A stretch of DNA of 64,000 nucleotides, taken from Pseudomonas asgharzadehiana. Lineage in GTDB: Bacteria; Pseudomonadota; Gammaproteobacteria; Pseudomonadales; Pseudomonadaceae. The translations under genes and the position numbers were made by a program. The stretch's first letter is position 1. Each line of letters begins with the position of its first letter. Shown piece after piece: positions 11,753-32,368 of this stretch. The notes under the pieces were generated by a model. That model saw nothing but the letters and a program-made list of their open reading frames with translations. It had not been told where the DNA came from and did no database searches. Where the stretch lies: the NCBI RefSeq assembly GCF_019139815.1, contig NZ_CP077079.1:2356001-2420000 (forward strand), read 5' to 3'.

Positions 11753-11775
11753 TCACAAGTATCGGTTTGCTGAGG

Positions 11776-12229: not shown

Positions 12230-13591
12230 ATGAAAACCCTCACTTTCTCATTGCTGAGCGGTGCGTTCTGCGCTGCGCTTGGCGCCGTTAGTTTACAAGC
12301 GTCTGGGGCCGTTGATGTTGGCAAGCTCGGAGGCGACCTTACCCCGGTTGGTGCGCAGAGGGCAGGCAGTGCCGATGGCACTATTCCAGCGTGGGACGGG
12401 GGGCTTACCAAGGCGCCTGCGGGTTGGTCACCAGGTCATGGCGATCCATACGCTGCCGACAAGCCGCTCTATTCGATTGATGCTGGTAACGTGGCGCAGT
12501 ATCAATCGAAACTACCAGCCGGTCAGGTAGAGTTGATCAAGATGTACCCCGGCTATCGTCTAGATGTGTACCCCACCCGACGCAGTTGTGCTATCCCAGC
12601 TGAAGTCGCACAACGTACCAAGGAGTTTTCCGGGCAGGGCAAGATCGGTGCGGACGGTTGGCGCCTGGAGCAGGCAGTTGGCGCTACGGTGCCGTTTCCA
12701 GTGCCACAGAGTGGCATCGAGGTGATGTGGAATTACAAACTTCGCTACATGGCAAAAGGGCGTCGCGCTCAGATCTCTTACTTGGCACGGGATACTGCAG
12801 GTGCGTTGTCTGAGGTCAAACAATGGGCCTATGAGTATTACCCTTACAATGATCCTTCGGTCAAAGGCCCAGCTGACACCGGCGACATTGAAGCCAAACT
12901 ACTGTACGACATTCTGACTCCATCGTCTCGCGCGGGTGAGATGTATCTGGTCCATGGCTACCTCGATAAACCACAGGACGCCTGGATTTATTTTCCCGGT
13001 CAGCGTCGCGTGCGACGTGCGCCATCCTTCGCCTATGACAACCCGATCGCGGGTGGCGACGGTCTGTATTTTGTCGATCAGATCAACATGTTCACTGGAG
13101 CCCTTGATCGTTACGACTTTAAACTTATCGGCAAGAAAGAGATCGTCGTGCCTTACAACTCCTACAAGTTGGTGGATAAGGCCAACAAGTATCAGAATCT
13201 GATTGGGCAGGACTACCTTAAACGCGACGCGCAGCGCTACGAGATGCATCGCGTATGGGTAGTCGAAGCGACGGTGAAGGCAGACAAGCGACACTCCTTT
13301 TCCAAGCGGGTGTTCTTCATCGACGAGGACAGCTGGACATTGCTGCATGTCGATATGTATGACGCCAAGGGCAATCTCTGGCGTGTGCAGGAAGGCAGTA
13401 TTTGGGCGGACCCGGGCATTCAGGCCTGCACTAGTTTCGAGTACGTCAGTTACGACCTTGTCGCTCGTCGATATATCGCAGACGGTTTCACCCAGGAAGG
13501 CGAGGTACTTGACTTGACCGCCGGTATGGAAGGGCGCGTCACCGACAAGATGTTCAATTCAAACGAACTGCGCCGTCGCGGCGAGCGTTAA
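12230..13591 (+). CDS. DUF1329 exported protein
   Basis: A 453-residue protein starting at ATG 12230, where a gagag Shine-Dalgarno and a classical signal peptide (cleavage near SLQASGA) support the start; the frame runs further upstream without such signals. The mature N-terminus has the family block GGDLTPVGAQRAG followed by GTIPAWDGGL. The rest is the LolA/LolB-like DUF1329 region. DUF1329 proteins are regularly encoded beside DUF1302 outer-membrane proteins and RND transporters in gene sets for hydrophobic substrates, as here. They probably act in the periplasm as lipid or substrate carriers, but no activity is proven. Confidence 0.9.
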   Translation: MKTLTFSLLSGAFCAALGAVSLQASGAVDVGKLGGDLTPVGAQRAGSADGTIPAWDGGLTKAPAGWSPGHGDPYAADKPLYSIDAGNVAQYQSKLPAGQVELIKMYPGYRLDVYPTRRSCAIPAEVAQRTKEFSGQGKIGADGWRLEQAVGATVPFPVPQSGIEVMWNYKLRYMAKGRRAQISYLARDTAGALSEVKQWAYEYYPYNDPSVKGPADTGDIEAKLLYDILTPSSRAGEMYLVHGYLDKPQDAWIYFPGQRRVRRAPSFAYDNPIAGGDGLYFVDQINMFTGALDRYDFKLIGKKEIVVPYNSYKLVDKANKYQNLIGQDYLKRDAQRYEMHRVWVVEATVKADKRHSFSKRVFFIDEDSWTLLHVDMYDAKGNLWRVQEGSIWADPGIQACTSFEYVSYDLVARRYIADGFTQEGEVLDLTAGMEGRVTDKMFNSNELRRRGER

Positions 13592-13611
13592 TTCTCTCGG
13601 AGTTCACCCAA

Positions 13612-15465
13612 ATGTATAAAAATAAAAAAAGCGGTGCGATGGTGCCGCAGGGTTTTCCGTACGCCTGCAGCACACTGACTCTTGGGGTTTTGACGGTATC
13701 GACGCTGATGTGGGCGCAACCGAGCCACGCGTTCCGCTTCGGTTCTGAAGAGGGCATATCAGGTAGCTTCGACTCCACCCTGAGCTACGGATTTGCCACT
13801 CGCATGCAGTCACCGGACTGCAAACTCCTAGGAGGCGATAGTGGTGGTTGCAGTAACGGTACCAGCACCGGGCTCGGTAAGTACTACAACTTGACCAAGG
13901 GCAACGGGTACGCCAACGCCGATATCAACTACACCAATTCCGATGACGGTAATCTCAACTACAACAAGCATGATGTTTTTTCTGAGGTGCTGAAGGGAAC
14001 TCATGAGCTGAGTCTGCAATTTGGCGATGGCTGGAGTGCTCTGGGCCGAGTTGCGTGGGCCAAGGACTTCAAGATGGACAACACTCGGCGCACCCATCTG
14101 GACGATGAAGCTGAACGTGATGCCACTGAGCGTCTCGATCTTCTCGACCTGTGGGTGGCCAAGAGCTTCGATCTTGGCGATATGCCCTCCAAGGTCAAGG
14201 TGGGTAACCAGGTGATCAGTTGGGGGGAGGAAATCTTTATAACCGGTGGCATCAACCAGATTAACGCCCTCAGCTTGCCCAAATACCACACACCCGGAAC
14301 GCAATTGAAGGAAGTATTCATCCCGGCTCCGATGGCATCCTTCAACGTGGGGCTTACAGATACCTTGAATCTGGAGGCCTACTATCAGTTCAAATGGAAC
14401 GCCTATGGTCTGGATCCGGTAGGAACCTATTATTCTGGTGCCGACGTGGTGGGTGAAGGTCGACGACCTATTTACTATTCCACTGACTACGTCGACAGCT
14501 TTTCAGGCGCTGGTACCTGTAGTGCGAGCACGCCAACCGGTCGATGTGGTGAGCCGTTGATCAGCGGCCTGAATAACGCAGCGTTGGTCGCCAACGGGCT
14601 CGCTGTCCCTTACGGCGGCGAACGCAAGCCTGATAATGGCGGCCAATATGGTGTGGCACTGCGCTGGACGGCGGAGGAGATCGGGACGGAATTCGGCTTC
14701 TACTACGAGCGCTATCACGACAAGCTCCCGTTCATTGGCTACACCGCTGTAGCTAACCCTGATGCCTTGCGTACGGATAACTTCTTCGTCAACTATGGAG
14801 AAGATAAAGACTTGTTTGGCCTGTCCATGTCCACCATGGTTGGCCCGGTGGCTGTCGCAGGAGAAGTGTCATTCCGACCCAACGACAGTGTCGGCATCGA
14901 CCCGACGGTTCCATTCGGTCGGGCTTTCACCGGCTCATTTAACAAGTACAGCGTATACGACACCGGTGTACATAATGGTTACGTCGAAGAGAAGAAGTGG
15001 CAGGTTGATGTTAACGCCATCTACACCTTCGCCGCTAACGATCCGCTCGGTTTCATTCCCAGCAGTCTTGGTGCATCTGACGGATTTATCCTGGCTGAGG
15101 CAGCAGTTACCTACTACCCGGATCTCGACACCTCTGGCGAAACTCCCTACTTTCTGCCGGACTACTCACTTCCAGACAAAACTTCCTGGGGCTATATCGC
15201 GGAGATCGGCATCAATTATCCCAATCTCTTTGGGAGCGGCATAACTGTCACGCCACAGCTTGACTTCAGTCATGACGTTAACGGGACTACGCCGAACGCA
15301 TTGCCCTTTATAGAAGGTCGTAAGTCGCTGACCAGTTCTTTACTGTTCAACTACCGCGATCGCTGGAAGGGGGGCCTCCAATGGGTGCAGTACTGGGGCG
15401 GTGGCGGCAACAATCTGATGGCTGATCGCGACTTCCTCAGCGGCAACGTTTCCTACTCGTTCTGA
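13612..15465 (+). CDS. DUF1302 outer-membrane beta-barrel protein
   Basis: A 617-residue protein with an N-terminal signal (WAQPSHAFRFGSEEGISG), alternating hydrophobic/polar strands throughout, many aromatic residues, and a C-terminal strand ending in aromatic Phe (NVSYSF), the usual outer-membrane insertion signal. These fit the DUF1302 family, found with DUF1329 genes. It starts 21 bases after the DUF1329 stop with its own ggag site, so the two are one transcription unit. The likely role is entry of a hydrophobic substrate across the outer membrane; this is inferred from family context. Confidence 0.9.
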   Translation: MYKNKKSGAMVPQGFPYACSTLTLGVLTVSTLMWAQPSHAFRFGSEEGISGSFDSTLSYGFATRMQSPDCKLLGGDSGGCSNGTSTGLGKYYNLTKGNGYANADINYTNSDDGNLNYNKHDVFSEVLKGTHELSLQFGDGWSALGRVAWAKDFKMDNTRRTHLDDEAERDATERLDLLDLWVAKSFDLGDMPSKVKVGNQVISWGEEIFITGGINQINALSLPKYHTPGTQLKEVFIPAPMASFNVGLTDTLNLEAYYQFKWNAYGLDPVGTYYSGADVVGEGRRPIYYSTDYVDSFSGAGTCSASTPTGRCGEPLISGLNNAALVANGLAVPYGGERKPDNGGQYGVALRWTAEEIGTEFGFYYERYHDKLPFIGYTAVANPDALRTDNFFVNYGEDKDLFGLSMSTMVGPVAVAGEVSFRPNDSVGIDPTVPFGRAFTGSFNKYSVYDTGVHNGYVEEKKWQVDVNAIYTFAANDPLGFIPSSLGASDGFILAEAAVTYYPDLDTSGETPYFLPDYSLPDKTSWGYIAEIGINYPNLFGSGITVTPQLDFSHDVNGTTPNALPFIEGRKSLTSSLLFNYRDRWKGGLQWVQYWGGGGNNLMADRDFLSGNVSYSF

Positions 15466-15471
15466 GCCCAT

Positions 15472-15492
15472 GCCCCCTTCATTGGAGGGGGC
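15472..15492 (+). other. Intercistronic hairpin between DUF1302 and RND genes
   Basis: Stem gcccccttc / ggagggggc (8 of 9 pairs) with a 3-base loop, 7 bases after the DUF1302 stop. No T-run follows, so it is more likely an mRNA-stabilising or attenuating hairpin than a full terminator. Confidence 0.5.
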
Positions 15493-15516
15493 TACTAACT
15501 CCTTCAGGTACTCTCC

Positions 15517-17877
15517 ATGTTGGCTTCTCTGGTGCTCGGACTCGAGCGTTTCTTCTTTCGCCATCGATTGGCGACCCTTGCCGTGTTGGCGGTGATTACG
15601 CTTGTCATGGGCCTGTTCGCGTCGCGTCTGGAAATGTCGGCGGGTTTCGACAAGCAACTTCCACAGCAGCATACGTTTATCAAGACGTTCAACCAGTACA
15701 GGGATGTGCTCTTCGGTGCCAACCGCATTATTGTGGTACTGCATGCCAAGCACGGCGACATCTGGAACAAGCAAGCGCTGACCCGATTGTATGACCTGAC
15801 TCAGGCAGTGTTCTTCATGCCGGGTGTTGATCGCCGCAGTGTTACTTCGCTTTGGACACCCAACACGCGAGCTGTTCAGATTACCGAGGAGGGTATGAAA
15901 GCCGAAGACGTGGTGGGTGGTGACGTCACCGTCGGTACCCTCGACGACAAGGCCATTTCAGGTATTCGCGAACGAACGCTTATCGGCGGCTTTGTGGGTA
16001 GTCTGGTAGCGAACGATCATTCGGGTGCCATGATCGTCGCTGAACTTGCAGATCCAGACCCGCAGACAGGCAAGCGTTTGAACTACCTGGAGTTCAGTCA
16101 GCGTCTTGAGAACGATCTGCGCAGTAAATATGCCGACGCCGACTATGATGTGCAAATCATTGGTTTCGCCAAGCAAATGGGCGATATCGGGGCAGGCGCC
16201 AAGAGTGTCATAGGTTTCTTTGCACTGGCGTTCGTTCTCACCGCGCTCGCCGTTTATTGGTACACACGTTCGTGGGCACTGACGTTCTTACCGCTGTTTT
16301 GCTCTTTGGTTTCGGTAGTCTGGCAGTTTGGCACGATTACCTTACTTGGCTTCGGCCTTGATCCGCTTGCGATTCTGGTACCGTTCCTCGTGTTCGCTAT
16401 TGGCGTATCTCACGGGGTGCAGCAGGTTAACTTTATCTCCAGGGAGGTTTGTGCCGGTGCTGATGGTATGACAGCCGCGCGCCGAAGTTTTGGGGGGCTT
16501 CTAATTCCCGGCACCTTGGCATTGATTACCGCCTTCGTTGGTTTTGCCACTCTGGTATTGGTGCCGATCCCAATGATCCGCGAGTTGGCGATTACCGCGT
16601 CGGTAGGCGTAGCCTATAAGATCATTACCAATCTGATCATGCTGCCAGTATTGGCTAGCTATTTCCGCTTCGACGCTGCCTACGTGGCCAGGGTGGAGCG
16701 CCTGCGCCAGCGGCGTGACAATGTGATGGTTGGGCTGGGTCGAATCGCTGAGCCACGTAATGCCGCAATTGGCGGCGTCATATGCCTTGCATTAATGGTG
16801 CTCGCGGTGTGGCAGAGTCACGGACGTCATGTGGGTCACGTTTTGCCTGGAGCACCCGAGCTCCATTCGGATTCGCGCTATAACCAGGATGTCGAGAGCG
16901 TAGTGCGTCACTTCTCACTGGGGCTGGACTTGTTCACCGTCGCAGTGGAAACACCCGAAGGTGGATGCTACCGACACGATGTGATGAGTTACGTGGATCG
17001 TTTGACCTGGCACTTGGGTAATGTGCAGGGGGTGCTTTCCGCCCAATCCTTGCCGGCGTTGACAAAGCTGTCAGCTTCTGGCGTGAACGAAGGCAATCCG
17101 AAGTGGGCGGCTCTGCCGGTGGACGAACTGTCTCTGGCTGAGGCGGTGCGCCAGGTGCCTGAATCTCTGCGACTGTATAACGCCGATTGTACCTTGTTGC
17201 CGATCAACCTTTACCTTGCCGATCACAAGGCCAGTACCTTGAAGCAGGTGGTGCAGGCTGTCGAACTCTACCGCCTGGAGCATACCCTCGAGGGCGTATC
17301 GGTTCGGTTGGCCAGTGGCAACGCCGGCGTGCAGGCAGCGACTAATGAGGTGGTGGAAACCTCTGAACTGCCAATGATGCTCTACGTCTATCTGACCATC
17401 TTGCTTCTGGTGTTGCTGGTCTATAGGGACTGGCGAGCGATGGTTGCCTGCTGCCTTCCGCTAACTCTCGCGACCTTCCTCGGCTATTGGTTCATGAAGG
17501 AACTGGATATCGGACTTACTGTCGCGACTTTACCGGTAATGGTACTTGCCGTGGGTATCGGTGTGGACTACGCGTTCTACATCTATAACCGCCTCCAGAT
17601 GCATCTTGTCGAGGGCCTGAACATCGTTGAAGCCTTTCAACTTGCTCTGCGTGAGGTTGGAGTGGCCACTGTGTTTACTGCGATCACCTTATCCGTAGGT
17701 GTTGCCACGTGGTCGTTCTCTGCACTGAAATTTCAAGCCGACATGGGGCTACTGCTGACGTTTATGTTCATGATCAACATGATCATGGCCATTACCCTTT
17801 TGCCAGCAATCGCCGTAATGCTGGATGTCCTCATTCCTCGACGGGGTCCCGTTCGTGCTCCCCTGGTTGCACATTGA
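15517..17877 (+). CDS. MMPL/RND-superfamily transporter
   Basis: A 786-residue membrane protein with the two-fold RND layout. There is a first TM near residues 20-38, a large extracytoplasmic domain, a TM2-6 block near 230-400, a TM7 near 420, a second loop domain, and a TM8-12 block near 620-775. The MMPL TM motif GIGVDYAFYIYNRL is clear. Length is shorter than HAE-type pumps and matches the YdfJ/MMPL-like exporters usually found beside DUF1302/DUF1329. With the periplasmic DUF1329 and outer-membrane DUF1302 proteins it may form a trans-envelope path for hydrophobic substrates. The direction of transport cannot be read from sequence. Confidence 0.9.
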   Translation: MLASLVLGLERFFFRHRLATLAVLAVITLVMGLFASRLEMSAGFDKQLPQQHTFIKTFNQYRDVLFGANRIIVVLHAKHGDIWNKQALTRLYDLTQAVFFMPGVDRRSVTSLWTPNTRAVQITEEGMKAEDVVGGDVTVGTLDDKAISGIRERTLIGGFVGSLVANDHSGAMIVAELADPDPQTGKRLNYLEFSQRLENDLRSKYADADYDVQIIGFAKQMGDIGAGAKSVIGFFALAFVLTALAVYWYTRSWALTFLPLFCSLVSVVWQFGTITLLGFGLDPLAILVPFLVFAIGVSHGVQQVNFISREVCAGADGMTAARRSFGGLLIPGTLALITAFVGFATLVLVPIPMIRELAITASVGVAYKIITNLIMLPVLASYFRFDAAYVARVERLRQRRDNVMVGLGRIAEPRNAAIGGVICLALMVLAVWQSHGRHVGHVLPGAPELHSDSRYNQDVESVVRHFSLGLDLFTVAVETPEGGCYRHDVMSYVDRLTWHLGNVQGVLSAQSLPALTKLSASGVNEGNPKWAALPVDELSLAEAVRQVPESLRLYNADCTLLPINLYLADHKASTLKQVVQAVELYRLEHTLEGVSVRLASGNAGVQAATNEVVETSELPMMLYVYLTILLLVLLVYRDWRAMVACCLPLTLATFLGYWFMKELDIGLTVATLPVMVLAVGIGVDYAFYIYNRLQMHLVEGLNIVEAFQLALREVGVATVFTAITLSVGVATWSFSALKFQADMGLLLTFMFMINMIMAITLLPAIAVMLDVLIPRRGPVRAPLVAH

Positions 17878-17891
17878 TAGGAGTACATCTG

Positions 17892-18821
17892 ATGTCCGTG
17901 ATTCGTTCTCTGCGTCCGATGTTGTTGTCGCTAATTCTGCTGGGAGCCGCCGCTGAAGGCGGGGGTGTAGCCATGCCGCTGGCCCACGCACAAAACGCTC
18001 CGTTGCTCGCTGTAACTCAGGCCGGTCAGCGCATGATTGCGCTTGGCGATCACGGTGTGGTGATCCTGTCTGACGATGGTCACACCTGGCGTCAGGCCAA
18101 GAGCGTGCCGGTAGATGGACTGCTCACCGCTCTGAGCTTCGTGGATGCCCAGCAAGGCTGGGCAGTCGGCCACGGTGGCGTGCTGCTGAAGACCGATGAT
18201 GGCGGCGAAACCTGGACCCTGCTGCAACGTATGGAGGGGCAGCCAGTGCTGCTTTCGGTCTGGTTCGAAAATACCCGTCACGGCATCGTTGTTGGCGCTT
18301 ACGGTTATGCTGCCCAGACCGAGGACGGAGGCCAGAGCTGGACACGTCTGAGTGTCGGCGAAGAGGGGGACGACTATCATCTCAATCATATTTTCCCGGG
18401 GCCCGACAACAGCCTTTTCGTTGCTGCAGAGATGGGGAATGCCTACCGCTCTATGGATCGCGGCACTACATGGCAGAAGCTCGATACTGGAGTCAGGGGG
18501 TCGCTGTGGGGTGGTCTCGGTCTGAGATCCGGCAGATTGCTTCTTGTTGGAATGAGTGGCCGAGTGTTGGTCAGCGACAACCTGGGTGACAGCTGGCGCG
18601 AACTGAGCAGTGGCAGCCAGGAGGCAATCACGGCTGTCGCCCAGCGGTCTGATGGTCGCGTGACACTGGTGGGTAACGGTGGGCTGGTCGCCGAATCGGA
18701 CGCCAACCTGGAGCGCTTTAACGCCTCGCGCAGGGAGGATCGTCTTAACCTGTCTGCGCTGGCACCCTTAGATGATGGGCGTCTGCTGCTGTTCGGTTCT
18801 GTAGGAGTGGTGCAGCAATAA
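17892..18821 (+). CDS. Ycf48-like BNR/Asp-box repeat protein, exported
   Basis: A 309-residue beta-propeller protein starting at ATG 17892 with a signal peptide ending near LAHAQNAP. Asp-box (BNR) repeats recur: TDDGGETW, TEDGGQSWTRL, SMDRGTTWQKL and SDNLGDSWREL. Photosystem assembly factor Ycf48 gives the fold its name, but in proteobacteria this relative is found with RND transporters and DUF1302/DUF1329 proteins. It starts 14 bases after the RND stop, so it is probably an accessory subunit of that system in the periplasm. The reading frame also extends upstream within the RND gene; that part is out-of-frame overlap and is rejected. Confidence 0.88.
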   Translation: MSVIRSLRPMLLSLILLGAAAEGGGVAMPLAHAQNAPLLAVTQAGQRMIALGDHGVVILSDDGHTWRQAKSVPVDGLLTALSFVDAQQGWAVGHGGVLLKTDDGGETWTLLQRMEGQPVLLSVWFENTRHGIVVGAYGYAAQTEDGGQSWTRLSVGEEGDDYHLNHIFPGPDNSLFVAAEMGNAYRSMDRGTTWQKLDTGVRGSLWGGLGLRSGRLLLVGMSGRVLVSDNLGDSWRELSSGSQEAITAVAQRSDGRVTLVGNGGLVAESDANLERFNASRREDRLNLSALAPLDDGRLLLFGSVGVVQQ

Positions 18822-19016
18822 CCTGGAGAGAGGCGATTGTCGCATGCACCTTTATACATCTGGGCGTAGTGGCGAAAGTCGACTTCTATTTAATCCACGT
18901 TCCTGCGCAGATCCGAGTCACATCGACGCCGTGTTCGCTCTTGACGCATGCCTTTGATAACGAGATGCGCAGGACCCAGATGCATCACATCGGGTTTCAT
19001 CACAAGGAGTGCCTGC

Positions 19017-21146
19017 ATGCAGATATGGTTCGGTAAGTTGTCGTTGCGACTCAAGCTAATATTACTCAATGCTTTGTTGCTGTCCCTTATTACCATTGTT
19101 CTCGTGTCTTTTGGGATGCGCTCGGCGTTAAGGGGGCAGGATGAAGTAACCCAGCGCATCGAACCGTTCGTACTGGGGACCGTGCAAGGACGATTGAGCC
19201 AGGCGCTTGCTGTCGAGATCTCGTCCATCAGCAATGCCTTCCAGTCTTCAAAGGCTCAGGGAGAGTTGCTGGCTCGTCAGATGAGCAGTCATATCGAGAA
19301 GGCGCGCAGGGACGGGCGGGCTGCCGAAGCGCGAGTTGCACTTGATCGCGACGTGAAAAACGCGTTGCAGGCTAACCACTATAGCTATGCAGCGTATGCG
19401 GTGCTCGAACCGGACGTTTTCGATGGTAATGACAGCGCTTTTGCCGGGCGTACTGAAGATGGCGCCAATGACAGCGGCCGCGTTGCGACGTTCTGGTCGC
19501 GCAATGTTCATAGCGACGTTAGCCACGCGGTCATTGATGAGGCGCTGCTGGCAGACAAGCAAACCAATCATTGGTATCGATGTGCGATAGACAGTAACAA
19601 GCTTTGTGTACTGCAACCCTATAACTATGATTTTACGGAAGGGCCTGCGGTTGTAAGCACCATTGCTCTACCGGTGTCAGTCGATGGCATGACCAAAGGA
19701 ATGGTGGGATTCGATCTGCGTCTCGACTTTGTTCAGGCGCTTCTAGCGCGAGTCAACTCCGAGCTTTTCGACGGTCAAGGTTCGCTTTATCTAGTCTCGC
19801 CGGGCGGAATCATTGCCGGGTACAGTGGAGCGCCGCAGCGTGTTGGGACTTCTTTAAACAGCACCGATTGGTTTGGGCTGGATAGGCTGCGCGAGTTGCC
19901 CGGCAACGGGCAGGCGAAGCTCGAGTCGCTGCCCGACGGTTACTTTCATCTAATACTGCCAATACCGCTGGTTGACGGGACGGCCCCCTGGATCGCCGTC
20001 TACCGTATTAAACAGGATGTTGCTAGTGCGGATGCAGAGGCGCTACGTGCCGATCTAGCCAGCAGTGCGCGGCGCACTGGTTTGCAGCAAACCGGCATCT
20101 CGATCCTGATGGCTTCGTTGGGGTTGCTACTTATGGCTTGGTTATGTGGTCACGCCCTTCGACCGTTAAAGCATATGCGTCATTTGATGGAGAGCCTGGC
20201 CAAGGGTAGTGGTGATTTAACGTTAAGTCTGCCAGTCAGGGGGGGGGATGAAGTTGGAGCGCTGGCGCTCAGCGTAAACGGCTTCTTGGCGGGCCTTCGT
20301 GGACTTCTGTCGGAGGTACGCAATTCTCAGGAGTTGGTGGAGGAGCGTACTCGCACCAGTTTCGAACTCGGGCGTGCCTCCACTTTGCAAATCGAGCGAC
20401 AGCACAGCGAGATCGGCGAAGTGGTGACAGCTATCAATCAGATGGCCTCTTCGGTGGAACAGATCGCGTGTAACGCTGCAACTGCAGCGGTCGCGGCTCA
20501 GCGTTCGCACGGTGCAGCCCAAGAGAGCGGAGCAATTATGCGCCAAGGATCCAGCGAAGTTCGGCGGTTGCTGGAGGAAGTCGGAGTGGTGCAAGCAATC
20601 GTCAGCGAACTGGATGCGGACTCAGTTCGCATTGCCCTGATTATGCAGCTCATTCGTGGCGTGGCCGAGCAAACAAATCTTCTCGCTTTAAACGCTGCTA
20701 TAGAGGCCGCTCGTGCCGGAGAACATGGGCGAGGTTTTGCCGTGGTAGCCGACGAGGTGCGGGCATTGGCAGCGCGCACTCAAAAATCGAGTGGCGAGAT
20801 CGAAACCATCGTTAACGGTATCCGGGAGGGCACCCACCGCGCGGTGGTGGCAATCGAGCGTAGCTTGATGCATTTGCATGGCAGTGTCGCGCATGCCGAT
20901 TCAGCGGAGGGTGCACTGCAAGGGATTATCGGCGCAGCGGGAGAGATTTCCGATCTGGCTTCCCAGATTGCTATTTCGGTTGAACAGCAGAGTGCCGTCA
21001 CTGAGGAGGTGAGCCGCAACATTGCCGCCGTAGGTCAGATGGCTGAGGAGATCAATCAACTAGCTATTTCAGCAGAGCAGGAACAGGCCGAAGTGGCGAA
21101 ACAGATGAAGGACCTTGGGCAGCATATTGGGCGTTTCAAGCTTTGA
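19017..21146 (+). CDS. Methyl-accepting chemotaxis protein with dCache-type periplasmic domain
   Basis: A 709-residue chemoreceptor. ATG 19017 is preceded by aaggag and starts just before the first TM ([19 protein letters not shown]). The periplasmic sensor spans about residues 40-355 and holds a HWYRC...C motif with two Cys separated by seven residues near 185-195. TM2 lies near residues 360-380 ([15 protein letters not shown]), followed by HAMP and a signalling domain whose tip reads [19 protein letters not shown]. It sits between the transport genes and the amine dehydrogenase, so taxis toward the same substrate is a reasonable inference. It resembles the receptor at 55639-57780 in domain plan and the Cys motif. 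Confidence 0.93.
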
Positions 21147-23066: not shown

Positions 23067-23071
23067 ACATC

Positions 23072-23701: not shown

Positions 23702-23703
23702 GA

Positions 23704-24228: not shown

Positions 24229-24232
24229 GTTG

Positions 24233-24682: not shown

Positions 24683-24686
24683 ACCC

Positions 24687-25328: not shown

Positions 25329-25416
25329 GTGAGAGAGTAACTAACTCGACGAGACTTGATTTTCAAGCTGGCCGAAGAGCATGTGCAACTTAATAAAAAA
25401 ACTGAGTGGGGTTTCC

Positions 25417-26601
25417 ATGTCTACACCTGAAGTGTTTATCGTCAGCGCCACACGAACTGCAATTGGCACCTTCGGTGGCACGCTAAAGGATATACCGCCA
25501 TCGCAATTGGCGACGACGGCCGTGCAGGCTGCCCTGCAACGCAGCGGTTGCGCACCGGACCGTGTCGGCAATGTTGTGATGGGCACTGTAATCCCAACCG
25601 ATACGCGTGACGCCTATCTTTCTCGGGTTGCCGCCATCCAGGCTGGCATACCTAAGGAGACTCCAGCGTTCAACGTCAACCGCCTGTGCGGGTCCGGCCT
25701 GCAGGCGATTATTTCAGCGGCACAGGGCCTGTTGTTGGGGGAAAACGAGGTTGCAATTGCCGGCGGTGCCGAGAGTATGAGCCGTGGGCCGTACATGCTT
25801 CCTGGCGCACGATGGGGTGGGCGTCTGGGCGACATGCAGGCGATTGACTACATGCTGGGTATTTTGCATGACCCCTTTCACCGCATTCACATGGGCATTA
25901 CCGCCGAGAACATCGCCGAGCGTTATGGTGTCAGCCGCGCCGATCAGGATGCGCTCGCGCTGGAAAGCCAGAAACGCGCGGCTCGCGCCATCTCTGAGGG
26001 TCGCTTTGTCGGGCAAATCGTACCGGTTGAAGTGAAAACGCGTAAAGGCATGCAACTGTTCGAGGTTGATGAGCACGTGCGCGGTGATGTCACGCTGGAA
26101 CAGTTGGCAGCTATGAAAGCGGCGTTCAAACCGGACGGAACAGTTACCGCCGGCAACGCTTCGGGCTTGAACGACGGCGCCGCAGCGCTGCTGTTGGCAA
26201 CTGATGCGGCGGTCAGGAGCGATAACTTGCGTCCGCTGGCGCGTCTGGTCAGCTACGCGTGTTCCGGCGTTGAGCCGGAGCTGATGGGGCTGGGACCAAT
26301 TCCTGCTACTCGTCTTGCTCTGAAACGCGCCGGCTTGACGGTCGCAGACCTTGACGTGATCGAGTCCAACGAAGCCTTCGCTTCCCAGGCCTTTGTTGTG
26401 GCACGCGAGCTTGAATTTGATCCTGCCAGAGTCAACCCGAATGGGTCAGGCATTTCCATCGGCCATCCAGTGGGTGCTACCGGAGCGATGATCGTGACCA
26501 AAGCTGTCCACGAACTCCATCGCATCCAGGGACGCTATGCATTGGCGACCATGTGTATCGGTGGTGGTCAGGGCATCGCAGCGATCTTTGAGCGAGTCTA
26601 G
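25417..26601 (+). CDS. Acetyl-CoA acetyltransferase / 3-ketoacyl-CoA thiolase
   Basis: A 394-residue thiolase that cleaves 3-ketoacyl-CoA with CoA (or condenses acetyl-CoA). It shows the nucleophilic Cys in NRLCGSGLQAI (near 88), the His of GHPVGATGA (near 350) and the second Cys of MCIGGGQG (near 380). ATG 25417 is chosen over 25381 because MSTPEVFIVSATRT is the normal family N-terminus. It is about 90 bases after the cytochrome c4 gene. It would complete beta-oxidation with the acyl-CoA dehydrogenase below. A hydratase/dehydrogenase pair is not in this island but is present at 9.9-11.7 kb. Confidence 0.95.
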   Translation: MSTPEVFIVSATRTAIGTFGGTLKDIPPSQLATTAVQAALQRSGCAPDRVGNVVMGTVIPTDTRDAYLSRVAAIQAGIPKETPAFNVNRLCGSGLQAIISAAQGLLLGENEVAIAGGAESMSRGPYMLPGARWGGRLGDMQAIDYMLGILHDPFHRIHMGITAENIAERYGVSRADQDALALESQKRAARAISEGRFVGQIVPVEVKTRKGMQLFEVDEHVRGDVTLEQLAAMKAAFKPDGTVTAGNASGLNDGAAALLLATDAAVRSDNLRPLARLVSYACSGVEPELMGLGPIPATRLALKRAGLTVADLDVIESNEAFASQAFVVARELEFDPARVNPNGSGISIGHPVGATGAMIVTKAVHELHRIQGRYALATMCIGGGQGIAAIFERV

Positions 26602-26615
26602 AGGTACGTCGGTGA

Positions 26616-27272
26616 ATGAATCAATTGGGTGATAAAGGCACTGAGGAGTCTATCTCTTCGCGATTGGAACCACTGCGCAAAACCGCCTTGCAGCTTTTCG
26701 CCCAGCGAGGTTTTGCTCGGGTGAGCTTGCGTGAACTGGCGCAGCAACTGGGGATGGGCCCCGGCTCCTTCTACTGCCATTTTGAGAGCAAAGAACAGCT
26801 GCTGTTCGAGTTGATCGAGGAGCTCTTCACCGACTTGATTGCGTTAGCGCGATGCCGCGATAAGGATTGCTCTCTTGCGTGCTTGAAGGCGTTCGTGCAT
26901 GCGCATATTGGCTTGCACGAGCGACGCGCCATGCACTTTCTAATCGCTGAGCGTGAGTTCCACTGCCTTTCGCTGGAGCATCAGCAACACATTTGCAAGA
27001 TGCGACAAGAGTACGAACATCGTTTTCTGGTGCTGTTGCGCGAGGCTGGGGCGAACGCACCCTCGCCGGTGCTTGCGGCGACCGTGCACGCGGTAATGGC
27101 CTGGTTGAACAACCTGCCAAGCTGGCTTGAACAGTCTGAACTGACAGCGTCGCAGAGGCCCGCAGTATTGAGTGCAATTGTGCTTGGATCGCTTTCCAGC
27201 GTTCTGCCGTTGCCGGTGCACTCCGTTCTTTGGAATGTTCCCGCGACCCGCAAGCGTATAGCTCGCAAGTGA
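26616..27272 (+). CDS. TetR-family regulator
   Basis: A 218-residue regulator. The N-terminal helix-turn-helix (about residues 22-65) reads ALQLFAQRGFARVSLRELAQ followed by LGMGPGSFYCHFESKEQL. The C-terminal ligand domain is not diagnostic. It is embedded between thiolase (14-base gap) and acyl-CoA dehydrogenase, all in one direction. By analogy with FadR/PsrA-type TetR proteins it may repress this cluster until an acyl-CoA is present; the ligand is unknown. Confidence 0.9.
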   Translation: MNQLGDKGTEESISSRLEPLRKTALQLFAQRGFARVSLRELAQQLGMGPGSFYCHFESKEQLLFELIEELFTDLIALARCRDKDCSLACLKAFVHAHIGLHERRAMHFLIAEREFHCLSLEHQQHICKMRQEYEHRFLVLLREAGANAPSPVLAATVHAVMAWLNNLPSWLEQSELTASQRPAVLSAIVLGSLSSVLPLPVHSVLWNVPATRKRIARK

Positions 27273-27329
27273 AGCTGGCCCTACATCAACCACTACATAC
27301 CCATGCAAACAATATTAAGAGACTCTGTT

Positions 27330-29108
27330 ATGGCTGATTACAAAGCTCCGTTGCGCGATATGCGCTTTGTCCTCAATGAAGTGCTCGAAGTCTCTAAATT
27401 GTGGGCTCAAATGCCTGCCTTGGCCGAGGTGGCAGATGAAGAGACCGCTATGGCCATCTTGGAGGAGGCCGGCAAAATTACTGGTGAAGTGATCGCTCCG
27501 CTCAATCGAAGCGGCGACGAAGAGGGATGCTCATGGCGCGACGGCGCGGTGAAGACTCCTGAAGGTTTCCCCCAGGCCTACCGAACCTATGCAGAAGGTG
27601 GCTGGGTGGGTGTCGGCGGTGCGCCGGAATTTGGCGGGATGGGCATGCCTAAATTGATCGGCGCCCATGTCGAAGAAATGGTCAACTCGGCAAACATGTC
27701 GTTTGCCCTATACCCGATGTTAACTGCCGGGGCCTGCCTGTCGATTTTGAACCACGCCAGTGAAGAGCTTAAGAGCCAATACCTGCCCAATATGTACGAG
27801 GGCCGGTGGACTGGATCAATGTGCCTGACTGAACCGCATGCGGGTACCGATCTTGGGATTATCCGTACCAAGGCCGAACCGCAGGCCGATGGCAGCTACA
27901 CGGTCACCGGCACCAAAATATTCATTACCGGTGGCGAGCAGGACCTGACCGAAAACATCATACATCTGGTACTGGCCAAGCTTCCGGACGCCCCTGCTGG
28001 CCCCAAAGGTATTTCGCTTTTTATCGTGCCTAAGTTCCTGGTCAACGCCGATGGCTCGTTGGGTGAACGCAATGCAGCCCACTGCGGTTCGATCGAACAC
28101 AAGATGGGCATCAAGGGCGCGGCCACTTGTGTAATGAACTTCGACGGCGCCACCGGCTGGATTGTCGATGCACCAAACAAGGGACTGGCGGCGATGTTCA
28201 CCATGATGAACTACGAGCGCCTGGGCGTCGGTATTCAAGGTCTTGCGTTAGGCGAGCGGTCATACCAGAACGCGGTCGAATACGCCCGGGACCGTATCCA
28301 GAGTCGCGCACCGACGGGACCCCAAGCCAAAGACAAGGTTGCTGATCCGATCATCGTGCACCCGGACGTTCGCCGAATGTTGCTGACGATGAAAGCTCTG
28401 AACGAAGGGGGGCGTGCTTTCTACAGCTACGTGGCGATGCAACTGGACACTGCCAAGTACAGCGAAGATGCCACCACGCGAGAGCGTGCCGAAGAAATGG
28501 TGGCCTTGTTGACCCCCGTCGCAAAGGCGTTCCTCACTGATATGGGGTTAGAGACCACGGTGCATGGCCAACAGATCTTTGGTGGTCATGGTTTCATTCG
28601 CGAGTGGGGCCAGGAGCAGTTGATTCGGGACTGCCGTATCACCCAGATATACGAAGGTACCAATGGCATCCAGGCGCTCGACTTGATGGGACGCAAGGTG
28701 GTCGGCTGCGGTGGTAGTTACTACAAACATTTCAGTAACGAAGTGAAGGATTTCATCAGCGCTGCCGATGCGAGACTGAGCGAATTCACCGTACCGTTGC
28801 AAGCCGCCATCGACATCCTTGATGCGCTCACCGCCTGGGTCATCGTGCAGGCCAGGGCTAATCCAAATGAGATCGGCGCCGCCTCGGTGGAGTACCTCCA
28901 GGTATTCGGTTACACCGCATACGCCTACATGTGGGCGCTGATGGCGCGCGCAGCTTTGGACAAGCAGGAACAAGAAGATTTTTATGTGAGCAAACTCGGC
29001 ACTGCGCGCTTCTACTTCGCTCGTCTATTACCACGCATTCAATCATTGAGCGCGGCAGTAAAGGCCGGCAGTGAGTCGCTTTACGAACTCGACGCCGCGC
29101 AGTTCTGA
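27330..29108 (+). CDS. Acyl-CoA dehydrogenase (about 600-residue class)
   Basis: A 592-residue flavoenzyme of the long acyl-CoA dehydrogenase class with an extra C-terminal domain. ATG 27330 (MADYKAPLRDMRFVLNEVLE) is the typical start; the frame reaches back to 27303. Motifs: MCLTEPHAGTDLG and TGTKIFITGGEQDLTENI in the FAD/substrate region, GHGFIREWGQEQLIRDCRI, and the catalytic Glu of IYEGTNGIQALDLMGRK. It introduces the trans-2 double bond into an acyl-CoA in the cytoplasm. With the thiolase and the ligase it forms the beta-oxidation part of the island. Chain length preference cannot be read from sequence. Confidence 0.95.
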   Translation: MADYKAPLRDMRFVLNEVLEVSKLWAQMPALAEVADEETAMAILEEAGKITGEVIAPLNRSGDEEGCSWRDGAVKTPEGFPQAYRTYAEGGWVGVGGAPEFGGMGMPKLIGAHVEEMVNSANMSFALYPMLTAGACLSILNHASEELKSQYLPNMYEGRWTGSMCLTEPHAGTDLGIIRTKAEPQADGSYTVTGTKIFITGGEQDLTENIIHLVLAKLPDAPAGPKGISLFIVPKFLVNADGSLGERNAAHCGSIEHKMGIKGAATCVMNFDGATGWIVDAPNKGLAAMFTMMNYERLGVGIQGLALGERSYQNAVEYARDRIQSRAPTGPQAKDKVADPIIVHPDVRRMLLTMKALNEGGRAFYSYVAMQLDTAKYSEDATTRERAEEMVALLTPVAKAFLTDMGLETTVHGQQIFGGHGFIREWGQEQLIRDCRITQIYEGTNGIQALDLMGRKVVGCGGSYYKHFSNEVKDFISAADARLSEFTVPLQAAIDILDALTAWVIVQARANPNEIGAASVEYLQVFGYTAYAYMWALMARAALDKQEQEDFYVSKLGTARFYFARLLPRIQSLSAAVKAGSESLYELDAAQF

Positions 29109-29204
29109 CCCCTCGGAGCGCTGGCCCACATCAGTTCAAGCGATGGTGCCAGCGCCAACAAGACCTTATTGAAATTCGATGAAATCCCTCTGGGAGATGT
29201 CCTC

Positions 29205-30857
29205 ATGGTTAAAACAAAAATAATTTTCCCTTCGCCAGGCGCGTACGAATACCCATTGCTGATCAAGAGTCTGCTGCTTTCAGGGCAGCGCTATGAAACA
29301 GAACAGGAGATTGTCTACGCTGACAAGCTGCGTTACAGCTACCGCACGCTCAATGAGCGTATCCGGCAACTGGCCAACGTGCTGACCGCTGCAGGCGTCA
29401 AGGCTGGGGACACCGTGGCGATGCTGGATTGGGACAGTCATCGCTATCTGGAGTGCTTTTTCGCGGTGCCGATGATCGGCGCCGTGCTGCATACGGTAAA
29501 TATTCGCCTGTCTGCCGAGCAGGTGCTTTATACGATGAACCATGCGCAGGATGATTTAGTCCTTGCCCATGATGATTTTCTGCCGCTGCTGGAACAAATT
29601 CATGGCGGACTGACAACTGTCAAAGGTTACATCCAACTGAGCGACGAGACGGCCAAGGCAACGACTTTGCCCGTAGTGGGCGAGTACGAGCAGTTGCTGT
29701 CGCAATCCCCTGCGACTTATGACTTCCCCGATTTTGACGAGAACTCGGTTGCCACCGTGTTCTACACAACAGGCACGACCGGTAACCCGAAGGGGGTGTT
29801 CTTCAGCCATCGTCAGCTGGTGCTGCACACCCTGTCCATGGTGGGCACTTTTAGTGCCTATCAAGGGTTGCCGCTGCTTCGCTCTGACGATGTCTATATG
29901 CCAATCACCCCAATGTTCCATGTACACGCCTGGGGAGTGCCCTATGTGGCGACGTTGATGGGGGTGAAACAGGTTTATCCGGGACGCTACGAACCCAATA
30001 CGCTGGTTCGCCTCTACAGGCAAGAGAAGGTTACGTTCAGCCACTGCGTGCCAACCATACTGCAGATGATTATGGGGTGCCCTGAGGCAGCCGGGACGGA
30101 CTTCAGTCGCTGGAAAATGCTCTTGGGCGGGAGTGCCCTGGCACTTGGCACCGCAAGTCAGGCAGCAGCGACTGGCATGCAGGTGTTCAGCGGTTACGGT
30201 ATGTCCGAAACCTGCCCGGTTCTATGTGCAACTTATCTGCGCGCTTCTGAGCTTGAACAGTCAATGGAGGAGCAGCTACCGCTCAGGATCAAAACCGGAG
30301 TACCAGCTGCGATGGTCGACCTGAAGATCGTCGACGCCTGTGGCAAGGACGTTTTGCACGACGGGGAGTCGATGGGGGAGGTGGTGGTACGTGCGCCCTG
30401 GTTGACCCAGGGCTACCTGCATGACCCGGAAAAAGGTGCCGAACTCTGGGATGGAGGCTGGCTGCACACCGGCGATATAGGTTCTATCAATGCGCGCGGT
30501 GTATTGGAAATCAAGGACCGTATCAAAGATGTCATCAAGACTGGCGGCGAGTGGATCAGCTCTTTGGAATTGGAGAGTCTGATCAGTAAGCATCCTGCCG
30601 TCATGTCCGTTGCGGTGGTGGGTATTCCTGATCTTCAGTGGGGCGAACGGCCAATGGCGATGGTTGTATGCACACCATCATTGCAGATTAATCAGGCGAA
30701 TCTGGAAGATTACCTGATGCAGTTCGTCGACAATGGCAGCATTAATAAGTGGGCCATCCCTAAAAAATTTCTGTTTGTCGATGATATCCCCAAGACAAGC
30801 GTTGGCAAAGTTGACAAGAAATTAATACGAAAGACCGAGCTCGCGGCGCGAGGATAA
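29205..30857 (+). CDS. Fatty acyl-CoA ligase, AlkK-like
   Basis: A 550-residue adenylate-forming enzyme that activates a carboxylic acid with ATP and CoA. Motifs: the P-loop TTGTTGNPKG (A3), YGMSETCPV (A5), TGDIG (A7), and IKDVIKTGGEWISSLELE (A8), with the catalytic Lys near GKVDKK at the C-terminus. N-terminal features resemble the medium-chain ligase AlkK. ATG 29205 is preceded by gggaga; the frame extends to 29169. It lies about 95 bases after the acyl-CoA dehydrogenase. It would activate the acid produced from the amine-derived aldehyde, but the aldehyde dehydrogenase for that step is not in this island. Confidence 0.93.
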   Translation: MVKTKIIFPSPGAYEYPLLIKSLLLSGQRYETEQEIVYADKLRYSYRTLNERIRQLANVLTAAGVKAGDTVAMLDWDSHRYLECFFAVPMIGAVLHTVNIRLSAEQVLYTMNHAQDDLVLAHDDFLPLLEQIHGGLTTVKGYIQLSDETAKATTLPVVGEYEQLLSQSPATYDFPDFDENSVATVFYTTGTTGNPKGVFFSHRQLVLHTLSMVGTFSAYQGLPLLRSDDVYMPITPMFHVHAWGVPYVATLMGVKQVYPGRYEPNTLVRLYRQEKVTFSHCVPTILQMIMGCPEAAGTDFSRWKMLLGGSALALGTASQAAATGMQVFSGYGMSETCPVLCATYLRASELEQSMEEQLPLRIKTGVPAAMVDLKIVDACGKDVLHDGESMGEVVVRAPWLTQGYLHDPEKGAELWDGGWLHTGDIGSINARGVLEIKDRIKDVIKTGGEWISSLELESLISKHPAVMSVAVVGIPDLQWGERPMAMVVCTPSLQINQANLEDYLMQFVDNGSINKWAIPKKFLFVDDIPKTSVGKVDKKLIRKTELAARG

Positions 30858-31036
30858 TTATTTTGCTTTCAGGAGTTTGAGATCGTTGGTGAGTGATCAT
30901 CCAGCTTGCATCTGGTCGAGAGCCGCTTACACGAACGTACGTGGTGTACGGAAACAAGTAGTCATCACGACCAGATCAAGCAGGCAAGAAAACTCTGCCT
31001 TGCGGTTTGTCAGCTAATGTTTTCAAGGAAGTTGCC

Positions 31037-32368
31037 ATGCCCAATAACAATAATATTTATCCCTCCAAAGCCCGTGCCTGGGGTACGGTCACCATATTGA
31101 TGATGGCCTACGTGTTGTCATTTGTTGACCGGCAAATCCTCAATCTGCTGGTGGGCCCAATACGTCGCGACCTGATGATCAGCGACACCCAGATGAGTCT
31201 GTTGATGGGACTGTCGTTTGCGCTTTTCTACACTGTATGCGGCATTCCTCTCGGGCGCCTGGCCGACACCAGGAGCAGGCGCGGCTTGATCGCCTTTGGC
31301 ATATTGTTCTGGAGCGCGGCCACCGCAGCCTGTGGTTTGGCCAGGCTTTACTGGCAATTCCTGATCTGCCGGATCGGCGTCGGCGTCGGCGAGGCAGCCT
31401 TATCACCCGCGGCCTATTCACTGATAGCGGACAGCTTTCCCGCCGAGCGCCGTGCTACGGCAATCAGTGTTTATTCGATGGGGGTATACCTCGGCTCGGG
31501 TTTTGCGTTTCTGTTTGGTGGTTTGGTCATCAAGCTGGTCTCTGCCCAAGGTGATGTACTGCTGCCTGTGCTCGGTGAAGTGCGTCCGTGGCAGCTGATT
31601 TTTCTCGCCCTTGGCGCCGCGGGGGTACTTTTCAACCTGCTTCTGTTAGCGATCAGGGAGCCTGCAAGACACGGCGCCGGGGCCGGTATCGCAGTGCCGT
31701 TATTGGAGGTCGGCCGGTATCTGCGTGCCAACAAACGGACCGTGCTTTGCCATAATTTCGGCTTTGCCGGCTTGGCCTTCGCCGGTTACGGCAGTGCAGC
31801 CTGGGTTCCGACATTCTTCATTCGCACCTATGGCTGGGACGCCGGTCAGGTCGGGATCGTATACGGCGGTATAATGGCAATATTTGGTTGCTTGGGAGTC
31901 GTATTCGGCGGGAGGCTCGCCGACTGGATTGCGAGGCGGGGCAGCAGCGACGCCAATATGCGTGTGGGTCTATATGCTGCCTTGGGTGCTTTACCTTTTG
32001 TACTGGCCTTTCCTGTGATGGAGAGCGCGCAATGGGCGGCGATTCTGGTCGCGCCCGCCGTGTTCTTTCTGAGCATGCCGTTTGGTGTGGCGCCGGCAGC
32101 CATTCAGGAGATCATGCCCAACTCGATGCGCGGCCAGGCATCGGCGATTTACCTGTTTGTGATAACGCTGATCGGCTTGGGCATTGGGCCAACGGCGGTA
32201 GCGGTAATGACCGACTACGTCTTTGGCGATGATATGTCACTTCGCTACTCACTGATGATTGTTACCAGCATCGCGGTGTTGTTCTCAGTTCTGTTGCTGA
32301 GCTTGAGTCTGAAACCCTATCGCGACAGCGTGGTGCACCTGCAACAGTGGGCGATCAGGGCGACCTGA
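31037..32368 (+). CDS. MFS transporter (Spinster-like)
   Basis: A 443-residue, 12-TM permease with the loop motif GRLADTRSRRGLIAFG between TM2 and TM3 and the VDRQILNLLVGPIRRDL start typical of the Spinster-like MFS group. ATG 31037 has aagga 7 bases upstream. It is the last gene of the long rightward cluster, 180 bases after the ligase. It could import the acid or another intermediate across the inner membrane; the substrate is not predictable. Confidence 0.9.
   Translation: MPNNNNIYPSKARAWGTVTILMMAYVLSFVDRQILNLLVGPIRRDLMISDTQMSLLMGLSFALFYTVCGIPLGRLADTRSRRGLIAFGILFWSAATAACGLARLYWQFLICRIGVGVGEAALSPAAYSLIADSFPAERRATAISVYSMGVYLGSGFAFLFGGLVIKLVSAQGDVLLPVLGEVRPWQLIFLALGAAGVLFNLLLLAIREPARHGAGAGIAVPLLEVGRYLRANKRTVLCHNFGFAGLAFAGYGSAAWVPTFFIRTYGWDAGQVGIVYGGIMAIFGCLGVVFGGRLADWIARRGSSDANMRVGLYAALGALPFVLAFPVMESAQWAAILVAPAVFFLSMPFGVAPAAIQEIMPNSMRGQASAIYLFVITLIGLGIGPTAVAVMTDYVFGDDMSLRYSLMIVTSIAVLFSVLLLSLSLKPYRDSVVHLQQWAIRAT

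Follow-up and report, generated by a model that had tools for sequence, protein, structure and literature searches.

A predicted composite locus for catabolism of a hydrophobic amine in Pseudomonas asgharzadehiana, with an AmeABCD-type transporter, a TTQ amine dehydrogenase and medium-chain beta-oxidation genes

Aromatic amine dehydrogenase (AADH), a tryptophan tryptophylquinone (TTQ) enzyme, is encoded in the aau cluster by genes for the heavy chain, MauE, MauD and the light chain in the order B-E-D-A, and its electron acceptor is azurin, the gene for which lies in the same cluster. The same genes in the same order, with both putative TTQ tryptophans, are found in the 64,000 bp stretch of the P. 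asgharzadehiana genome (6.1 Mb, one contig) that is analyzed here and is referred to below as the window (NZ_CP077079.1, positions 2,356,001 to 2,420,000; G000:C1:2356001-2420000). Unlike in the aau/AADH system (PDB 2agl/2hxc family), the TTQ genes of the window are joined to an AmeABCD-type transporter and to beta-oxidation genes. An initial annotation, made from the sequence alone, had described 12230-32368 as an island in which a long-chain or aryl-alkyl amine is sensed, taken through the outer membrane and deaminated in the periplasm, the resulting acid then being activated and beta-oxidized.

In Castellaniella defragrans, ameABCD encodes a DUF1302 protein (A), a DUF1329 protein (B), a COG4447 protein (C) and an RND transporter (D) (PMC6394551). 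All four component types (DUF1302, DUF1329, Ycf48/COG4447 and RND) are found in one cassette in the window, and the DUF1302/DUF1329 pair comes first in both systems. The order within the pairs is reversed in the window (DUF1329-DUF1302-RND-Ycf48), and AmeABCD adjoins monoterpene genes whereas the window module adjoins an amine dehydrogenase. The P. putida genes PP_0765, PP_0766, PP_2018 and PP_2019 similarly combine a DUF1302/DUF1329 pair with a periplasmic protein and a transporter (called a multidrug efflux transporter), but by their locus tags they lie in two separate places, and their link is with use of Tween20 rather than with an amine dehydrogenase (PMC10866462). Quinohemoprotein amine dehydrogenase (QHNDH; qhpABCDEFGR) is also a periplasmic quinone amine dehydrogenase, with cysteine tryptophylquinone (CTQ) as its cofactor rather than the TTQ of the window enzyme. 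Its operon is under an n-butylamine-inducible regulator (PMC7876137), and the window encodes a QhpR-like AraC-family regulator. Dehydrogenases that use cytochrome c, have a Tat signal and are predicted to be periplasmic are reported to include NicA2, Pnao and those relatives that have a cytochrome c gene next to them (PMC9396064, PMC12224317). These flavoproteins are not homologous to the TTQ enzyme and none was noted among the scanned window genes, but relatives of them lie beside the same transporter lineage in two other genomes. A literature search, outside which most subscription literature lay, found no report of a DUF1302/DUF1329 module paired with an amine dehydrogenase.

Based on gene content and comparison with other genomes, we consider it somewhat probable (roughly 60%) that the window contains a composite locus for the catabolism of a hydrophobic primary amine, combining transport, periplasmic deamination by the TTQ enzyme, aldehyde oxidation and medium-chain beta-oxidation. 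The AmeABCD-type system (a DUF1302 barrel, a DUF1329 protein, a Ycf48-like protein and an HAE3-type RND pump) would move the amine across the envelope, either inward or outward. A TTQ enzyme of the AADH kind would then oxidize it, presumably in the periplasm, to an aldehyde and ammonia, with electrons leaving via the neighboring mono- and di-haem cytochromes c. Oxidation of the aldehyde would follow in the cytoplasm, most likely by the aldehyde dehydrogenase ALDH1 (5176-6624; this and all other window genes are on the + strand unless otherwise indicated), and the acid would be activated by a ligase (29169-30857). A medium-chain degradation set consisting of an acyl-CoA dehydrogenase (27303-29108), an enoyl-CoA hydratase (ECH_b, 10973-11752), a 3-hydroxyacyl-CoA dehydrogenase (HCDH, 9965-10813) and a BktB-like thiolase (25381-26601) would complete the route. 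The QhpR-like regulator (AraC1, 3890-5092) probably senses the amine, and a chemoreceptor (18948-21146) may guide cells to it. The sequence of steps from amine to aldehyde, acid and acyl-CoA is well supported at this locus by the predicted genes, flux through all of them being presumed. The pathway idea of the initial annotation thus appears largely right for the window, but two modules seem to have been joined in this locus, the only recurrent one being the transporter with the amine dehydrogenase, and the predicted HCDH, ECH, ALDH1 and QhpR-like regulator supply steps that its island missed.

The TTQ enzyme and its linkage with the transport module

Gene identities are based on open reading frame (ORF) calls and Pfam/NCBIfam profile scans of the window proteins, which bore out the genes named previously, at the same coordinates and on the + strand. 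The heavy chain (21265-22512; PF06433, 124 bits) and the light chain (23704-24228; PF02975, 185 bits), the latter with a Tat-like SRRGFL motif and a Cys-rich mature part, have between them genes for MauE (22506-23066; PF07291, 74 bits) and a thioredoxin-like MauD with a CPVC motif (23063-23701, start uncertain, in an ORF that opens at 22892; TIGR02661, 195 bits against a cut-off of 189). The heavy chain is nearer to AADH (PDB 2hxc, 165 bits, a partial match over residues 59-338) than to methylamine dehydrogenase (MADH; 2bbk, 107 bits), while the light chain scores 156 bits with AADH chains, 162 bits with MADH 3c75_L (a long chain) and 119-138 bits with other MADH chains. Methylamine dehydrogenase proper was rejected, as both NCBIfam equivalog cut-offs were missed (TIGR02658 for the heavy chain, 137 against 454 bits; TIGR02659 for the light chain, 177 against 197). 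The light chain aligns with 2agl_D, and its residues W103, D122 and W154 (numbered in a 176 aa form) are invariant in all 23 sequences of a further alignment; we take W103 and W154 (residues 101 and 152 of the 174 aa form) to be the TTQ tryptophans, and the importance of D122 is likewise presumed.

The light chain gene is followed by genes for a mono-haem cytochrome c (cytA, 24230-24682; one CXXCH, no Pfam match) and a di-haem cytochrome c (cytB, 24687-25328, with its ATG at 24687 inside an ORF that opens at 24360; PF00034 twice, two CXXCH). There is no azurin gene among the genes after the light chain, which are these two cytochromes and then the thiolase (the search for azurin covered these genes only). 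For comparison, neighborhoods were read at the best 80 of at least 578 confirmed light chain candidates (hereafter the named loci: nine from Pseudomonas and 71 from elsewhere, 40 of the latter with full flanks), where neighboring genes were predicted with a basic ORF script and identified by BLAST comparison with the window proteins and a small number of Pfam scans; the resulting lists are incomplete. A cytA relative lies no more than 4 kb from the light chain gene at 79 of the 80 loci (9/9 Pseudomonas and 70/71 others), and cytA is the best candidate for, and likely, the electron acceptor; a cytB relative lies at most 4 kb away in all nine Pseudomonas loci and in 14 of the 71 others.

The transport module upstream consists of genes for a DUF1329/LolA-like protein of the AmeB type (12230-13591; PF07044, 435 bits; PF17131, 59.5 bits), a DUF1302 outer-membrane barrel of the AmeA type (13612-15465; PF06980, 510 bits), an RND/MMPL transporter of the AmeD (HAE3) type (15517-17877; PF03176, 78 bits; PF00873) and a Ycf48/BNR-like protein of the AmeC type (17892-18821, most likely starting at the ATG at 17892; PF14870, 64 bits). 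A structural model of the DUF1302 protein shows an outer-membrane barrel (pLDDT 77), for which Foldseek returned porins and AlgE (best E-value: 2.2e-10). The chemoreceptor gene stands between the module and the heavy chain gene; its product matches PF00015 and HAMP, with a dCache match under its cut-off.

The pairing of module and TTQ genes recurs, which agrees with the earlier suggestion that a TTQ amine dehydrogenase is coupled to a transporter of hydrophobic compounds and that synteny searches should find the pair elsewhere. In eight of the nine Pseudomonas named loci, the exception being P. piscis (L003; L labels denote fetched loci and G labels sampled genomes, G000 being that of the window), RND, DUF1302 and Ycf48 genes are found within 10.5 kb of the light chain, as is DUF1329 in seven of the nine, L004 being cut by the end of the fetched stretch. 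P. marincola JCM 14761 (L005) and P. japonica DSM 22348 (L008) are among the strains that have the pair. In a sample of 298 genomes of the genus (at most three RND candidates scored per genome), a light chain of at least 79% identity was found in 12 genomes and an RND transporter of at least 83% in 13 genomes (14 places), both occurring together in 11 (hypergeometric probability 2.7e-17, which ignores kinship). The next-best RND matches in this sample show only 55-58% identity, such that the window RND forms a lineage of its own (at least 83% compared with at most 58%), here called RND-A. The position of the transporter varies: it is upstream of the TTQ genes in the same direction in most cases, downstream in L011 and divergent in G274 and G296. 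In G250, module and TTQ genes are on separate contigs; by comparison with the homologous region of G296, the ends of these contigs lie next to each other. The distances for light chain, heavy chain, MauD, RND, DUF1302 and DUF1329 correlate with each other (rho 0.49-0.88; 14 loci, 13 for DUF1329; kinship not removed), and none of 999 permutations reached the observed value in any of the 15 comparisons. In a sample of 360 genomes of the class, RND matches at E-values of 1e-240 or below were limited to G000, G488 and G610, and in G610, which belongs to another family, the TTQ genes (light chain 53%) are followed directly by DUF1329-DUF1302-RND-Ycf48.

The three RND-A places without TTQ genes (two in G129 and one in G227, in neither of which a TTQ light chain was found) are all beside flavin amine oxidoreductases. 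Two of these enzymes were scanned and match PF01593 (L137 and L138); that of L139 is 96% like that of L138, to which that of L137 is only 26% identical. All three have Tat-like N-termini (SRRKFL/SRRGFL) and a CXXCH gene adjoins each. The best PDB match of the L138 enzyme is 7u6l, which is Pnao (PMC9396064). Thus 13 of the 14 RND-A places directly adjoin an amine dehydrogenase of the TTQ or flavin type, and the fourteenth does so via contig ends. As a control, we chose (non-randomly, from the listing of at most three RND candidates per genome) 16 loci of other RND lineages, eight at 54-57% and eight at 39-41% identity. All four module genes were detected in 11 of these; L180 is cut by a contig end and L182, L183, L188 and L189 miss one or two. 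Across the 13-20 kb covered at each, none of the 16 gave a match to TTQ genes, to flavin enzymes of this type or to QHNDH (Fisher's exact test for 13/14 against 0/16, 1.2e-7; against 0/11 complete-module controls, 2.7e-6). Weak matches in the controls are to a DAO-family protein (28-33%, 4/16) and QhpR (24-28%, 2/16).

We tentatively propose, while thinking it a little less probable than the contrary, that the RND-A AmeABCD-type lineage is specialized to work with amine dehydrogenases of the periplasm irrespective of their chemistry (TTQ or flavin/cytochrome c). The pump would extract a membrane-dissolving amine from the inner membrane and deliver it to the periplasm, where it would be oxidized, and any suitable acid-degrading operon could be attached downstream. 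QhpR-like regulators and the chemoreceptor type recur in this setting: the QhpR model (NF049968, cut-off 250) gives 254.5 and 251.7 bits for the regulators at L138 and L139, and chemoreceptor relatives with 60% and 63% identity are encoded next to the TTQ genes of L004 and the flavin amine dehydrogenase gene of L138. As regards direction, it is close to an even bet that the system exports, clearing membrane-dissolved amine or aldehyde out of the inner membrane, to the periplasm or the outside, and thereby shielding the cell during TTQ catalysis. Castellaniella deleted for ameABCD tolerates monoterpenes less well and accumulates more Nile Red, which suggests export, and HAE3 pumps are said to move their substrate into the periplasm, the compartment in which the dehydrogenase would act (PMC6394551). 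In contrast, the requirement for PP_0765/PP_0766 with PP_2018/PP_2019 in growth of P. putida on Tween20 suggests uptake (PMC10866462), and the DUF1302 barrel model gives no direction.

Other genes recur near these loci. Among L002, L004 (= G054), L006, L007 (= L149), L010 (= G102) and L011, a flavodoxin-2-type protein (cluster c9, 5/6) and a protein of about 176 aa without a Pfam match (c11, 4/6) follow the TTQ cytochromes or the module; the former was not found in the genome of the window, in a search without a positive control. L003, L007, L010 and L011 have, close to the TTQ genes, a gene for a DAO-family FAD oxidoreductase (69-71% like the L003 protein), which adjoins a QhpR-like AraC gene in L003, L149 and L011. 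Relatives of PF00884 sulfatases (cluster c13, one member scanned) are near the RND-A modules of L137, L138, L139 and L005, of both the TTQ and the flavin type.

The beta-oxidation operon and the G280 locus

Downstream of cytB are the thiolase gene (25381-26601), a TetR regulator gene that serves as a marker of the operon (26616-27272; PF00440), and the acyl-CoA dehydrogenase and ligase genes. The thiolase belongs to the BktB subfamily (NF006552, 669 bits against a cut-off of 565) but scores below the equivalog (NF042999, 636 against 725), the acyl-CoA dehydrogenase is of a FadE2-like, medium-chain type (best PDB match 8png), and the acyl-CoA/acyl-ACP ligase matches NF004837 (658 against 476) and, best among PDB entries, the acyl-ACP synthetase 8hsy. 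Genes for thiolase, TetR and ligase were found near the TTQ genes in none of the nine Pseudomonas named loci, and acyl-CoA dehydrogenase matches in two of the nine are just 24-25% identical. The full 12230-32368 island was therefore rejected as a conserved unit, the part of it that recurs being transporter plus TTQ. The contents of that island stand, but its limits were too narrow: same-strand genes (7944-11752) lie directly upstream, with ALDH1 and AraC1 farther out.

A TetR relative of more than 80% identity was found only in G280, both among the 298 genomes and in a second search of 398. Its locus (L160) retains OsmC, ECH_a, AraC1, ALDH1, the APC permease, AT3, AraC2, Isoch, HCDH, ECH_b, the thiolase, TetR, the acyl-CoA dehydrogenase and the ligase at 74-91% identity. 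These include AraC1 (78%; QhpR model 236.5 bits in the window and 237.4 bits in G280, both just below the cut-off), ALDH1 (81%; PF00171, 508 bits in the window), a second AraC-family regulator (AraC2, 6681-7733, - strand; PF12625/PF12833; 77%), an isochorismatase-like hydrolase (Isoch, 9383-9931; PF00857; 77%), HCDH (PF02737/PF00725; 86%), ECH_b (PF00378; 88%), an amino acid/amine permease of the APC family (34059-35489; about 80%) and a class III aminotransferase (AT3, 35510-36922; NF005102, 694 against 574; 89%). This synteny supports the previous suggestion that the route would need to draw on the aldehyde dehydrogenase at 5182.

G280 lacks the TTQ block, and a QHNDH set adjoins its ligase gene instead. 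This set comprises an alpha subunit (PF09098, PF09099, PF09100 and PF14930), a gamma subunit (PF08992), radical SAM, S8 subtilase, ABC and FAD proteins and a beta-subunit-like protein of 372 aa without a Pfam match; QhpB, QhpE, QhpF and QhpG were assigned by size, family and position. PF09098 gave no match in the genome of the window, and a match in one of 14 control genomes. One beta-oxidation operon, as predicted from its genes, is thus found with two unrelated amine dehydrogenases of the periplasmic type (TTQ and QHNDH).

ECH_b and the thiolase gene are separated by about 300 bp in G280 and by the 13.6 kb transport/TTQ block in the window. G+C content is about 47% over 1-11752 of the window and 54-57% from 12071 on (the transport, TTQ and thiolase-to-ligase genes and later genes to 36.9 kb), and in G280 it steps from 48% (ECH_b) to 58% (thiolase) at the same junction, so that two gene sets appear to have met here at an earlier time. 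With two genomes only, insertion in the window and loss in G280 are not distinguishable. As no exact direct repeats of 9-14 bases were found between the block edges (11701-12100 and 25201-25400), no insertion mechanism is claimed. All intergenic gaps over 12230-30857 are at most 126 bp (52 bp from the last cytochrome gene to the thiolase gene), and over 9300-27300 neither promoter-like matches (4, against 10.2 in shuffled sequence) nor terminator-like matches (19 against 17.1) are in excess, which makes one continuous transcript across the island plausible. Taken together, these results suggest that the thiolase, TetR, acyl-CoA dehydrogenase and ligase genes form a separate medium-chain beta-oxidation operon joined to the transport/TTQ unit. 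Activation and beta-oxidation of the acid after deamination, as envisaged earlier, would then fall to this separate unit rather than to part of the recurrent pair, although its closest relative is also beside a periplasmic-type amine dehydrogenase.

Several neighboring features were also recorded. In G274, G296 and G250, an acyl-CoA-dehydrogenase-like protein of 601-641 aa, 34% identical to that of the window, is encoded a few kb from the TTQ light chain (L141:622-2427, L142:12232-14037 and L148:5892-7817). Other acyl-CoA-type genes (ECH-like, 26-31%; acyl-CoA-dehydrogenase-like, 25-34%) are near TTQ genes in nine of 14 loci, matches that are weak and have no background rate. Between ECH_a and AraC1, G280 has transposase-like fragments (L160:4773-6264) and the window has moaA and a 3HCDH-like gene. 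The MFS carrier gene after the ligase (31007-32368; PF07690) has no match in the G280 stretches, and its membership of the island is doubtful. It is followed by a third AraC-family regulator gene (AraC3, 32447-33766; QhpR model 150 bits). Farther along the window are an indoleacetamide-hydrolase-like amidase gene (42722-44284; NF005688, 557.6 against 532), flanked by genes for a LuxR-type regulator and an OprB porin, and a 4-hydroxybenzoate 3-monooxygenase gene (54096-55391; TIGR02360, 687 against 539).

Substrate and rival explanations

The substrate is probably a medium-chain or aryl-alkyl amine (C4-C10 alkyl or aryl-alkyl), judging from the predicted enzymes. In FadE2, Met130, Glu296 and Gln303 limit the acyl chain to about 8-10 carbons (PMC11890623). 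The window acyl-CoA dehydrogenase has M139, E305 and Q312 at these positions, with E451 as the catalytic Glu (numbering from the 8png alignment), whereas six FadE1- and PA0507-like paralogues in L152-L154 have Gly/Ala/Gln at the plug positions. Together with the BktB subfamily of the thiolase, these residues make a medium chain likely and C16 not, so that the "long-chain" amine of the initial annotation is less likely; the ligase subfamily NF004837, named long-chain, points the other way.

That subfamily name is one of several observations that weigh against a single route through the composite locus. ALDH1 is one of 35 matches to the aldehyde dehydrogenase model in the genome, fragments included (an aldehyde dehydrogenase gene lies within 5 kb of the light chain in 22 of the 71 non-Pseudomonas named loci). 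Neither the RND gene nor the transport module was found at any of those 71 loci, 40 of which have full flanks. G292 (P. piscis, L003) has TTQ genes without RND-A, so the transporter is not indispensable. In G488, from the same family as G610, the module is at a contig end, the TTQ light chain is encoded on a different contig, and the 20 kb examined around each part does not contain the other; with the linkage in G610, this indicates that the pairing is not peculiar to Pseudomonas and that linkage is not universal. Among clade II light chains (about 55% identity, 38 places), the two flanks read (L155 and L156) contained no module. The coupling of beta-oxidation to amine dehydrogenases comes from two genomes, those of the window and G280. 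HCDH-TetR-acyl-CoA dehydrogenase groups in G082, G223 and G287 (TetR 56-59%) had no TTQ match, and two of them (L171 and L173), checked further, gave neither a flavin nor a QHNDH match; a thiolase gene accompanies both of these and a ligase gene L171, while G287 has another Ame-like module and G082 an RND match near its group. Finally, control loci L179 and L181, which lack an amine dehydrogenase, have thiolase and acyl-CoA dehydrogenase genes at 72-74%, and Ame-type modules thus also accompany beta-oxidation alone.

Alternatively, two independent operons may be merely adjacent, the amine dehydrogenase/transport cassette having come by chance to lie within a fatty acid operon with no shared pathway. 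This would fit the absence of these beta-oxidation genes from the other Pseudomonas TTQ loci examined, the related operons elsewhere in which no amine dehydrogenase was detected, and the location of the cassette, relative to G280, at what appears to be an old seam. We nevertheless regard it as unlikely, because the sole other genome with the operon at more than 80% has QHNDH beside it, ALDH1 and the QhpR-like regulator are part of the conserved locus, and only 52 bp, with no excess of terminator-like matches, separate the cassette from the thiolase gene.

Two further explanations concern the substrate, and both seem improbable to us. If it were tyramine or dopamine, beta-oxidation would be irrelevant and the products would feed homoprotocatechuate (hpa) genes, a partial set of which is found at 37201-41581, 5-9 kb past the end of the island. 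The likeness of the heavy chain to AADH would suit this, as would HpaD (38996-39853, - strand; 450 against 316), an HpaF-like gene (38558-38950, - strand; below its cut-off) and an HpaR-like MarR gene which, like an HpaX-like MFS gene, scores below its cut-off. However, HpaD (among the queries) has no match in the G280 stretches, HpaE is represented here only by a C-terminal fragment that contains a stop (near 39906-40043), while a full-length gene lies about 0.19 Mb distant, and the products would not be expected to require an acyl-CoA dehydrogenase and a thiolase. A bifunctional substrate, a diamine or omega-amino acid whose nitrogens would each be removed by the TTQ enzyme or by the aminotransferase, with the dicarboxylate beta-oxidized to malonyl-CoA, would account for a malonyl-CoA decarboxylase gene (7944-9386; PF05292, 336 bits) and for the retention of the class III aminotransferase and APC permease with the operon. 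It is of similarly low probability: G280 has no decarboxylase counterpart between AraC2 and Isoch (no blastn match to 7818-9366 of the window), and polar diamines would be a poor fit for a transporter of hydrophobic compounds.

A composite locus for a hydrophobic primary amine would offer a testable genetic route from such an amine to acetyl-CoA in which deamination takes place outside the cytoplasm, and would give a role to nearby aldehyde dehydrogenase, HCDH and ECH genes that are otherwise unplaced. Few substrates are known for DUF1302/DUF1329/HAE3 modules, and the two studied cases differ in direction, with export suggested for AmeABCD and use of Tween20 in P. putida. A transporter lineage that is found beside two unrelated kinds of amine-oxidizing enzyme may therefore provide a defined chemical class with which to test such modules.

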